Below the pieces are notes generated by a model, which saw only the letters and a list, made by a program, of their open reading frames with translations, had not been told where the DNA came from and ran no database searches. Both the position numbers and the translations under genes were made by a program. A stretch of 64,000 nt of DNA from Pseudomonadota bacterium (lineage in GTDB: Bacteria > Pseudomonadota > Gammaproteobacteria > Pseudomonadales > Pseudohongiellaceae). The stretch covers positions 113,132 to 177,131 of the forward strand of contig JAQCKF010000003.1 of the NCBI GenBank assembly GCA_027592275.1, read 5' to 3'. Positions 4,737 through 9,730 of this stretch are shown in pieces; position 1 is the first letter of the stretch; each line of letters opens with the position of its first letter.

Positions 4737-4992
4737 CGATTTTTCCTTGTTAAAAGGCCCAGTCAAGCGCCTCAATCTAGAGCAAATCATCCAACAAAGC
4801 GACTGACTCACGATCTGACGGATTGGTAAATAGTGCCAGAATCCCCTGACTTTTCAATTGCCTAATTCTCCTTCGGGCCATAAATTGCGATACCCTCTAC
4901 CCAAACCAACTGTTATATTGAGTCGGCTACCAACTATTGGTGGCCATTTCAGTCGTTCAGGGGCTCATTCTGCCCTGATTAAGGAGAACACC

Positions 4993-6129
4993 ATGAAGAC
5001 TATAAAAAGCATAGCCGGCCTCACTGCCGTCATGCTTATAAGCGGCGCGCTCAACGCCCAGAGCGCAACTGTGCTCTACAACGAGCGGGTCGTAGAGCTG
5101 GAGCAAACGCTGCCAGACGCTACCGACCTTTGGGTTAAACCCGAAGACCTTACCCGAGTAAACGATTTCGTTCTTAAGCCTGAAGGGGCTTGCCTGGACG
5201 AATTGTGCGTTCCGGTTCTGCAAGATCGAGACAGCGCCATGTTTATTACCCGGCAGGGACAACCATGGTTCAACGTTACCGAGCTAGCGGACAAACTGCA
5301 GCAAGCCTACGTCACGGATTACAATGACGGCATCTGGAGTTTTGGCACTGTGCCAGTAACGCGTCAGTCTTTCCTACGCGGTGGCGAAGCACCCGATTTC
5401 GAACTGATGGGTCGCGATGGCGAACTCGTTCGTCTTTCAGATTTTCGAGGCAAAAAGGTATTACTCCTTACTTGGGCCTCGTGGTGAGGATGTCGTCTAG
5501 ACGTGCCCGTGTGGCAGTCCATATACGAAGAACTCAAGTCTGAAAATTTTGAAATTATCTCCGTCGCGCAAGACACTGGCGGCGAAGAAGCTGCTGGACA
5601 CATCTTTGACGATGCGAATGTTAGCTATACAGCGATTATCGATGTGAACCATCAGATAAGCTCGCTCTACAATTTGGTCAATGTCCCCTCAGGTGTTTGG
5701 ATCGATGAACAAGGATCGATAATGCGCATCAATGAAGGCACCTATGCGAAGGAACATATGAATGGCGCATGGGGTACCAATGATTACGTGCCCATCGTCC
5801 GCGACTGGGTAGCAAAGGGAGCCGACAGCGAACACGTCTGGGATAGAAGTAAGGTGCGGGAAAGTATCATTCAACGCACACCTGAAGCCGAGCGCGCCCA
5901 GCCTGCGTTCCGTCTAGGTGGATATTACTTTACCAATGACAACGATGAGAAAGCGGAACAATACTGGACCATGGCACAGGAGTTAGATCCTACTAGTTGG
6001 AACTACCTGCGGCAGGATCTACAGTATGAAGAAGGTGGCTCTGCTGGACCCGAGTGGCGTGCTAGGCGCGAACAGATAGAAGGTGCAGGTGGCGCTTACT
6101 ACGCACCGCTGGAAATCAAAAACAACTAA
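4993..6129 (+). CDS. TlpA/ResA-like redoxin, probable selenoprotein (in-frame TGA at 5485-5487 read as Sec165)
   Basis: Reading through one TGA joins two same-frame open stretches into a 378-residue exported redoxin. The ATG follows a strong AAGGAG (4981-4986). Residues 1-24 are a signal peptide (ends NAQSA), 25-125 an N-terminal module with Cys67 and Cys72, 130-300 a thioredoxin-fold redoxin, and about 300-378 a helical TPR-like tail. The redoxin part starts GGEAPDFELMGRDGE and reads LLLTWASW-TGA-GCRLDVPVW, so the TGA sits precisely where TlpA-type proteins have the first catalytic Cys (WASWC). Homology runs on unbroken after it, including the cis-proline region VNVPSGVWIDEQG. A hairpin with bacterial SECIS features starts 12 nt after the TGA. 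Expected role: periplasmic thiol/disulfide or peroxide redox chemistry. An artefact or pseudogene is the alternative, but TGA on the catalytic position makes it unlikely. Confidence 0.87.
5500..5519 (+). promoter_or_regulatory. Putative bacterial SECIS element downstream of the in-frame TGA
   Basis: GAC (5500-5502) pairs with GTC (5517-5519) and TGCC (5504-5507) with GGCA (5513-5516), with a single bulged G at 5503 and the five-base loop CGTGT (5508-5512). Twenty bases separate the TGA (5485-5487) from the loop. Known bacterial SECIS elements are small hairpins inside the coding region with the apical loop about 16-37 nt after UGA, a G in the first two loop bases and often a bulge on the 5' side. 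All three features are present. The element would be bound by SelB to recruit Sec-tRNA. Pairing was done by eye, without an energy calculation. Confidence 0.68.
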
Positions 6130-6157: not shown

Positions 6158-6199
6158 ATCAAAAAAGCCGACCAAGTTTCCTTGGTCGGCTTTTTTGAT
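6158..6199. terminator. Bidirectional intrinsic terminator
   Basis: A near-ideal inverted repeat: ATCAAAAAAGCCGACCAAG, loop TTTC, then the exact complement ending in TTTTTTGAT, 19 base pairs. A run of A on one side and T on the other lets it act in both directions. It lies between the convergent selenoprotein gene and the NHL-repeat gene and should end both transcripts. Confidence 0.95.
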
Positions 6200-7680: not shown

Positions 7681-8679
7681 ATGATTAAAAAGATATCCCT
7701 CATATCCCTAACGCTCGTTCTTGGCAACGTAGCAGCCGCTCAAGAATACCAGATTCCAAAAACTGAATGGGGCGTACCCGATTTTCAGGGAGTCTGGAAA
7801 CACGCGACGGTCATGCCGCTTGAACGTCCAATAGAACTGGGTGAGAAACGTGCCTACACCGAGGCAGAGGCTATTGCACTCGAGTCTGTGGTGCAGCAAA
7901 AATTTGAGGACAACAATGAGCCACTCGATCCGAACAGACCACCTCCTGTGGTGGCCGAGTCACTACCCCCGATAGGAAACTACGATCTGTTCTGGCGTGA
8001 CGATGCGAAATTCATCCCCACTATAGATGGTGAATTCAGAACGTCCGCGATCATCGACCCCGCTAATGGGCGCATGCCTGAACGGACAGCACAATTCGAT
8101 GCGCGTATGGATCAGTTTCGTGGAGGCAGACCCGGACGGACTAGCGACGGCCCCGAAGGTCGCGGACTTGGTGAGCGCTGCCTCGTCGGTTTCGGAAACT
8201 CCGCTGGCCCGGTAATGAGCCCTGTTATCTACAACAGCCACCTGCAGTTCACGCAATCACCTGGCTACGTGACGATTACAGCAGAGATGGTTCACGATAC
8301 ACGCATTGTTAAGATTACCAGTGAGCGATCCGCAGCAGCCGAGACACACCGCAAGTGGATGGGAGACGCGATTGGTCGTTGGGAAGGTGACACCCTCGTT
8401 GTCGAGACCAAGTACTTCAACAACTGGCACACATTGCGAGGCATGCCGGTTAACAACATGACCATCACTGAGACCTTTAGGCGTGAGTCAGGCAATAAAT
8501 TGATCTACGGATTTACCGTAGACGACCCAACGCTTTTTACTTCGACGTTCAGCGGCGAATATCCCTTGTCGAGAATCAACGAACCAATCTACGAATACGC
8601 CTGCCACGAAGGCAACTACGGCATGATAGGCATTCTGGCTGGCGCCAGAAAATTGGAAGAGTTGGATAGCGACGACTAG
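7681..8679 (+). CDS. Exported protein of an unrecognised family, paralogue 1
   Basis: This 332-residue protein has a signal peptide (ends NVAAAQE) and a mature region opening with IPKTEWGVPDFQGVWKHA. The convergent gene at 8738-9730 encodes the same family: shared blocks include PDFQG/PDLQG, the NGR(M/L)P segment, RCL followed by GP, the GRWEGDTLVVETK/AHWEGDTLVVHTQ block, PIYEYACHEGN, and GILAG near the C terminus. The conserved histidines and tryptophans suggest a folded periplasmic domain, but I do not recognise an enzyme or binding fold. Start ATG 7681 is preceded by AAGAAGAAGGGG. It probably has its own promoter in the 334-base gap upstream and ends at a clear terminator. Confidence 0.8.
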   Translation: MIKKISLISLTLVLGNVAAAQEYQIPKTEWGVPDFQGVWKHATVMPLERPIELGEKRAYTEAEAIALESVVQQKFEDNNEPLDPNRPPPVVAESLPPIGNYDLFWRDDAKFIPTIDGEFRTSAIIDPANGRMPERTAQFDARMDQFRGGRPGRTSDGPEGRGLGERCLVGFGNSAGPVMSPVIYNSHLQFTQSPGYVTITAEMVHDTRIVKITSERSAAAETHRKWMGDAIGRWEGDTLVVETKYFNNWHTLRGMPVNNMTITETFRRESGNKLIYGFTVDDPTLFTSTFSGEYPLSRINEPIYEYACHEGNYGMIGILAGARKLEELDSDD

Positions 8680-8737: not shown

Positions 8738-9730
8738 TTAGGGAGAGCCAGCATCCTTGGGCGTTCCATCACCATTCATACCCTCCGCTTCATAGCGGCG
8801 CCAACCTGCAAGTATTCCCGCGAGCCCATGATTTCCCTCATGACAGGCATACTCGTAAATCGGCATGTCGGTTCTACGCATTGGCACCTTAGCTGACCAA
8901 GATACATCCCATGTCTGAGAGTCTTCGACGGTAAAGTCATAGTCGAGTGTATTCTCATCGACACGTGTGAACCGCTCGGTTACGCTCATGTTTGAAGATG
9001 CGCCGCGGGCAGTTTGGTTGTAATAGAAATCTTGCGTGTGGACAACGAGCGTATCGCCTTCCCAATGAGCAATCGAATCCCCATCCCATTTAATCTGCCG
9101 CGTATGGTGCTCACTGTCTAGGCGAATTATCCGTGCCCGGTGAATCATCTCATTTAGGATCATGATGTGATCTTCGGTCTGCACCAGCTGCATATTATTG
9201 TTATAGGCACCCGGTACCATCGGTGGTCCTGCACCATTGCTCATCAGGCAACGGTCGGCTAATGTGCGAGCCTCCGGCCCAAGGCTTAACCTTCTATTTT
9301 CTGCGACCACCGCACGCCTGCTCTGTCCTGCTGCGTTTGCCTGCGGAAGACGACCGTTGGGCGGATCGTAGATAAGCGAGGTACGACGGTCGGCAATCGT
9401 CTCGACACCGCGTTCATACCAGAATTCGTTGTAGGAGATGACGCCTGGCGGATAGCCAGCCCCTCCTACTGAATCTATGATGAGGTCGCGATTCTGACGT
9501 CGATTCTCGAAAGCTGCCCATTCCTGCGCCTCTTCTGCTGTAAGCGTAGCTTTGTCGGCAAGCTCGGATGGGCGGTTGAGAGGGGTGAGTGTGCGAAAGG
9601 TGTAAGTGCCCTGTAAATCAGGATGGCCATATTCCGTGCGTGGAATTACGGATTCCTGCGCTTGTAGTACTGGGGCCAACAACAAGCTGGTAACTGCTAA
9701 AGTCAGGATAGATGTGATCTTGTGCTTCAT
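8738..9730 (-). CDS. Exported protein of an unrecognised family, paralogue 2
   Basis: This 330-residue protein has a signal peptide (MKHKITSILTLAVTSLLLAPVLQAQ) and then IPRTEYGHPDLQGTYTF, matching the opening of the convergent neighbour. The C-terminal blocks AHWEGDTLVVHTQDF, MPIYEYACHEGNHGLAGILAGWR and the MSVTERFTRV segment line up with the other copy (MTITETFRRE). The two are clearly homologous but far from identical, so the duplication is old rather than an assembly artefact. Function is unknown; the pairing of two copies tail to tail around one terminator suggests related roles, possibly on different substrates. ATG at 9730 has GGAGACACA just upstream. Confidence 0.8.
   Translation of the reverse strand: MKHKITSILTLAVTSLLLAPVLQAQESVIPRTEYGHPDLQGTYTFRTLTPLNRPSELADKATLTAEEAQEWAAFENRRQNRDLIIDSVGGAGYPPGVISYNEFWYERGVETIADRRTSLIYDPPNGRLPQANAAGQSRRAVVAENRRLSLGPEARTLADRCLMSNGAGPPMVPGAYNNNMQLVQTEDHIMILNEMIHRARIIRLDSEHHTRQIKWDGDSIAHWEGDTLVVHTQDFYYNQTARGASSNMSVTERFTRVDENTLDYDFTVEDSQTWDVSWSAKVPMRRTDMPIYEYACHEGNHGLAGILAGWRRYEAEGMNGDGTPKDAGSP

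Follow-up and report, generated by a model that had tools for sequence, protein, structure and literature searches.

A probable selenoprotein of the ResA/TlpA-like redoxin type encoded by a gene with an in-frame TGA in a gammaproteobacterium of the Pseudohongiellaceae

Introduction

The window analysed here, a stretch of 64,000 nucleotides from contig JAQCKF010000003.1 (assembly GCA_027592275.1) of a gammaproteobacterium of the Pseudohongiellaceae, carries at positions 4993-6129 of the forward strand one reading frame of 378 codons that ends in TAA and contains a sole in-frame TGA at positions 5485-5487 (codon 165). This raises the question of whether the TGA terminates translation or is read as selenocysteine (Sec). 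A preliminary description of this DNA had noticed that two same-frame open stretches are parted by this single TGA at the active site of a redoxin, and this is borne out by the frame and by a match to PF00578 that runs across the TGA. Our analysis indicates that the UGA is very probably decoded as Sec, yielding a single protein of 378 residues that is predicted to be exported and to have a ResA/TlpA-like fold, and that is most likely a thiol-disulfide oxidoreductase whose active site is Sec-Gly-Cys.

The Reading Frame and Conservation of the TGA Codon

Around the TGA the translation reads TWASW-TGA-GCRLDVPVW. As described previously, a strong ribosome-binding site (AAGGAG, 4981-4986, forward strand, read from the sequence) precedes the first part of the frame, 6 bases upstream of the ATG at 4993. 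The PF00578 match, which scores 57.8 bits against a cut-off of 26 and covers residues 130-243, spans the TGA, and ResA/TlpA chains in the PDB likewise match across it.

Relatives were sought in named genomes with an alignment limited to the sequence downstream of the TGA, a query chosen to favour neither Cys nor Sec, and the best 80 of at least 164 confirmed relatives were retained as loci. A TGA occurs at exactly codon 165 in 79 of these 80 loci. In the 80th (L104) the region of codon 165 is missing, the homology starting only downstream, 126 bases from the edge of the locus, with unrelated sequence before it. The records of these loci are labelled, among others, Gammaproteobacteria, Pseudomonadales, Alphaproteobacteria, Acidobacteria/Vicinamibacteria, Planctomycetaceae, Hydrogenedentota, and Acidimicrobiales. 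Among the 80 rows made up of the window gene and the 79 TGA loci, 18 have an extracted frame with an additional TGA outside codon 165; these additional TGAs are taken to lie where the frame ran beyond the gene ends, and all rows were kept. Related sequences count as separate in these codon counts and in the residue counts that follow. The best 120 of 716 matches in the protein database comprise 55 full-length homologues, of which 54 carry Cys at residue 165 and the remaining one (P0043) carries Leu, and 65 C-terminal fragments that start just after the TGA. All 65 matches listed at an identity of at least 79% are such headless fragments, mostly unnamed or called "hypothetical protein". In line with the expectation that automatic gene callers would split the gene, the plain listing of open reading frames also divides it at the TGA.

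A sequencing or assembly error for TGC or TGT, which the preliminary description had named as a finding that would overturn its proposal, would fit the Cys found here in the Cys-form homologues. However, the same TGA stands in 79 of the 80 loci, in separate records; it is therefore neither chance nor a sequencing error, and we assign this explanation a practically negligible probability.

The ratio of nonsynonymous to synonymous substitution rates (dN/dS) between the window gene and nine near loci is 0.013-0.060 before the TGA in the six comparisons that allow it to be computed, the other three having saturated synonymous sites. After the TGA it is 0.017-0.068 in all nine. Wherever it can be computed it thus stays below 0.07 on both sides. 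Both sides are under purifying selection at the protein level and the downstream part is, therefore, not dead. These data bear directly on the alternative that the TGA is a true stop, leaving either a pseudogene or two genes, one for a 164-residue N-terminal protein and one for a 208-residue protein starting from the GTG at 5503. The split in the open reading frame listing and the many C-terminal fragments in the database would be expected in that case. However, the loci retain TGA rather than TAA, TAG or a shifted stop, selection is strong on both halves, the break falls inside the redoxin active site and 55 homologues are unbroken, which makes a true stop very unlikely.

Within the order, 10 of 293 genomes (the source genome included) contain a match at E ≤ 1e-20. 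Among the 13 matches found, seven have one TGA and six have none, one of the latter (L036) being an ordinary CGPC redoxin. One genome of the order (G255) carries three UGA-containing paralogues (L028, L037, and L039).

Selenocysteine Machinery and Switches between UGA and Cys

The preliminary description had proposed a search for selA, selB, selC, and selD. In the source assembly (3.2 Mb, 43 contigs, 95.5% complete) SelA (529 bits), SelB (383 bits, above the cut-off), SelD (286 bits, within an open frame of 759 codons), and a tRNA-Sec with anticodon UCA (66.9 bits) are all present; judged by its gene content, the source genome is able to insert Sec. The SelD (G000:C41:130070-130990, L126) lies at the end of its frame, the front half of which resembles by eye an FAD/NAD-binding oxidoreductase, which suggests a probable fusion.

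SelA was searched for in 41 genomes, namely those of 32 of the 79 TGA loci and nine genomes of the order. It is present in 34 of the 36 UGA-bearing genomes versus none of the four with Cys forms of the family, and was not found in the one tested genome with an ordinary redoxin. The two UGA-bearing genomes without SelA have a tRNA-Sec at 66.9 bits. The best tRNA-Sec score among the four Cys-form genomes is 46.9. Since this falls under the gathering score of 47, and a tRNA-Ser of the source genome reaches 49.1, the low-scoring matches in these genomes are probably other tRNAs.

A tree of 145 rows built with FastTree (85 UGA, 59 Cys, and one Leu; three UGA pairs are near-identical) shows UGA forms interspersed with Cys forms. 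It requires at least seven changes between the two, all forced by well-supported branches, and carries long-branch warnings for three rows. Together, the 85 UGA and the 59 Cys sequences offer a test bed for two questions: how Sec compares with Cys in a U-G-C/C-G-C centre, and how an insertion signal within the coding region constrains the protein.

A SECIS-Like Hairpin Downstream of the UGA

A hairpin that is a candidate selenocysteine insertion sequence (SECIS) is located at positions 5500-5519 (forward strand; GAC-(g)-UGCC / loop CGUGU / GGCA-GUC), its loop beginning 20 bases after the UGA. In the window and the 24 nearest loci, codons 170-173 (GAC GTG CCC GTG), which overlap this hairpin, show zero synonymous variation, whereas outside residues 160-180 all 172 conserved columns vary synonymously. 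Codon 171 ends in G in all 80 rows (the window and 79 loci), while V/L codons of the same genes do so in 44% on average. A consensus fold of 40 rows gives the hairpin UGCC/GGCA with a five-base loop, and the four-pair core forms in 80/80 rows and in 6/6 further TGA loci (86/86 TGA forms) versus 1/5 Cys loci. In the window, the hairpin is lengthened by three pairs beneath a bulged G (seven pairs with the bulge). The 20-mer adopts this fold at -6.8 kcal/mol, and 5 of 200 shuffles fold equally well. The published criteria for bacterial SECIS elements are a loop of 3-9 nt with a G in the first two positions, a stem of 4-16 bp, and a distance of 16-37 nt from the UGA (PMC13188914); the hairpin has this geometry, with the loop CGUGU (G second), a core stem of 4 bp, and a spacing of 20 nt. 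The residues that form the stem (V/L171, P/S172, W174, and Q175) are retained together in 85/85 UGA forms versus 16/59 Cys forms; a phylogenetically independent test of this retention pointed in one direction only and was not significant (median p 0.25).

Reading of the UGA by a near-cognate tRNA (tRNA-Cys or tRNA-Trp), without insertion of Sec, would equally explain a conserved read-through, and nothing speaks specifically for it. It does not account for the Sec genes of the 36 genomes tested with the TGA form, of which 34 have SelA and the remaining two have tRNA-Sec, and the lack of SelA in all four with Cys forms, for synonymous sites frozen at SECIS distance, or for Cys as the aligned residue in 54 of the 55 homologues. 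We consider it extremely unlikely. If Sec is indeed inserted, SelB carrying the Sec-tRNA would bind the hairpin at 5500-5519.

A number of observations, however, weigh against Sec decoding. The 20-mer falls short of the energy limit for a SECIS element given in the same source (-7.5 kcal/mol or lower; PMC13188914). A 33-mer at -8.0 retains three of the four core pairs only, beside another hairpin, and in a 40-base piece a different fold wins. Compared with synonymous reshuffles, the sequence after the TGA does not fold at lower predicted energy (mean z +0.19). The stem is without compensatory changes, covariation being neither for nor against the hairpin, and the amino acids fix most of its letters. 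Consequently, it is chiefly the frozen synonymous sites that speak for the SECIS. Among the relatives, P0043 has its Leu at residue 165 inside an otherwise UGA acidobacterial group and locus L071 reads U-I-C (codon 166); either may reflect a real change in the coding sequence, a choice made in annotation, or an error. Finally, the gene is absent at E ≤ 1e-20 from all 11 listed genomes of the same genus or family, six of which do have SelA. The gene is therefore patchy in its distribution, with no simple tie to the machinery.

Domain Architecture and Possible Function

Residues 1-22 of the read-through protein (4993-5058; all features of the protein are encoded on the forward strand) resemble a signal peptide, with a basic start, a hydrophobic core, and ALNA|Q (hydrophobicity by script and by eye), and the protein is probably exported. 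A group of UGA-containing relatives (L067, L068, L072-L076, L085, and kin; start codons by script) begins with sequences like MAxxxMAYPELRHPF, without a hydrophobic stretch, from which it follows that a cytoplasmic form of the same Sec-Gly-Cys enzyme may exist.

The signal-like start is followed by an N-terminal domain of approximately 95 residues (23-117; 5059-5343) with a confident predicted model, for which neither a Pfam match above the cut-off nor a clear PDB match was found. It contains Cys67 and Cys72 (CX4C; 5191-5208), the only Cys in the protein apart from Cys167. Both are Cys in 78 of 80 UGA rows, the other two being gapped, and in 56/56 full-length rows including that of the window.

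The redoxin domain occupies residues ~125-280 (5365-5832), as indicated by Pfam, PDB chains, and fold matches. In both sequence and fold it is most similar to ResA, DsbE, and TlpA-type proteins. The initial characterization as a TlpA/ResA-like redoxin holds for the predicted fold, although only this middle part of the protein is redoxin and it has U-G-C instead of a CxxC motif. ResA, TlpA, and DsbE (CcmG), which are alike in predicted fold to this middle domain, have CxxC; the active site of the window protein, WASW-U-GCR, has a single residue between U and C, one fewer, and the Cys forms accordingly read C-G-C. It also differs from these proteins in its extra N-terminal and C-terminal regions, the latter a helical tail (residues ~281-378; 5833-6126) that is TPR-like at sub-threshold scores only. 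Cys167 (5491-5493), the partner of residue 165, is Cys in all 85 UGA rows and all 59 Cys rows. In the alignment with ResA it corresponds to the second Cys, and Asp170 to the Glu of CEPCKKE, which is probably Glu80, presumably with a role in tuning the active site; the PDB includes an E80Q variant of ResA.

A protein with Sec at this position may also be a peroxidase of the peroxiredoxin-like type rather than a thiol-disulfide oxidoreductase, which we regard as unlikely though deserving of serious attention. The catalytic motif of peroxiredoxins is TxxC, and the residue three positions before Sec165 is Ala162 instead of the Thr. The ResA, DsbE, and TlpA-type matches and the invariant partner Cys two residues after Sec165 argue against a peroxidase as well.

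For a thiol-disulfide oxidoreductase, Sec165 would attack a disulfide and Cys167 would resolve the intermediate as a selenenylsulfide; more speculatively, the invariant Cys67/Cys72 pair of the N-terminal domain could exchange electrons, in either direction, with the Sec-Cys pair. Tentatively, one may envisage a two-centre selenoenzyme in which the CX4C pair of a domain without a known family relays electrons to a strained Sec-Gly-Cys in the ResA-like domain, and in which the SECIS hairpin also dictates the protein sequence, a constraint relaxing after conversion to Cys, but this extended scheme is doubtful.

Relation to Known Families

The preliminary description had suggested that ResA-like WAxxUGC selenoproteins may already be catalogued. 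NCBIfam NF041054 (WAxxUGC_long, "ResA-like WAxxUGC motif-containing protein", equivalog) indeed bears this name, and a 2008 survey names "Prx-like (UGC-containing)" selenoproteins (PMC2398784). The window protein scores 247.4 bits with NF041054 (best stretch residues 45-254), below the curated cut-off of 300 bits. Among its relatives, two WAPY-U-GC proteins reach 467 and 479 bits and seven other UGA relatives 232-255; NF041054 models a sister group of the branch to which the window protein belongs. The WAxxUGC motif is shared, as WASW-U-GC in the window protein and WAPY-U-GC in the high scorers, and so, by eye, is the N-terminal CX4C. The signal-peptide-like start, in contrast, is missing from the two high scorers (their starts chosen by eye). 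Since the model scores this branch below its cut-off, it may leave it unnamed, and gene finding breaks the gene at the catalytic residue, leaving fragments as database entries.

UGC-containing Prx-like/TlpA selenoproteins are also listed in two reviews (PMC9312934, PMC13188914). As far as the accessible parts of these publications go, this kind is described by domain and motif, from environmental sequences and with Cys homologues counted alongside, and it shares with the window protein the AhpC-TSA/TlpA (PF00578-type) domain and U-G-C. Likened on those two features alone, the predicted window protein belongs to this known kind and is not a new one. The N-terminal CX4C domain, the signal-like start, and the SECIS evidence are features of its branch that come from the present analysis. 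We found no experimental study in literature searches that covered open-licence papers.

Other Features of the Source Genome and the Window

The neighbouring genes at 7681-8679 (forward strand) and 8738-9730 (reverse strand) encode two proteins with signal-like starts; in related loci both hit identical places, and they therefore resemble each other. A Pfam search with these proteins gave no match at E ≤ 0.001. Downstream of the selenoprotein gene, at 6161-6196 (forward strand), an A-run, a hairpin (GCCGACCAAG), and a T-run form a terminator-like element, as read from the sequence. It is symmetric and sits between convergent genes, likely serving as terminator for both.

In the source genome as a whole, 18 matches to AhpC-TSA were found, of which four, the window gene and three others, have one TGA, each at a plausible place for an active site. 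The three others read FTGG-U-TMQ (G000:C2:13111-13476, L122), FDW-U-PYC (G000:C1:178056-178451, L123), and GHW-U-PYC (G000:C22:4558-4923, L124), and on their sequences are probable further selenoproteins.
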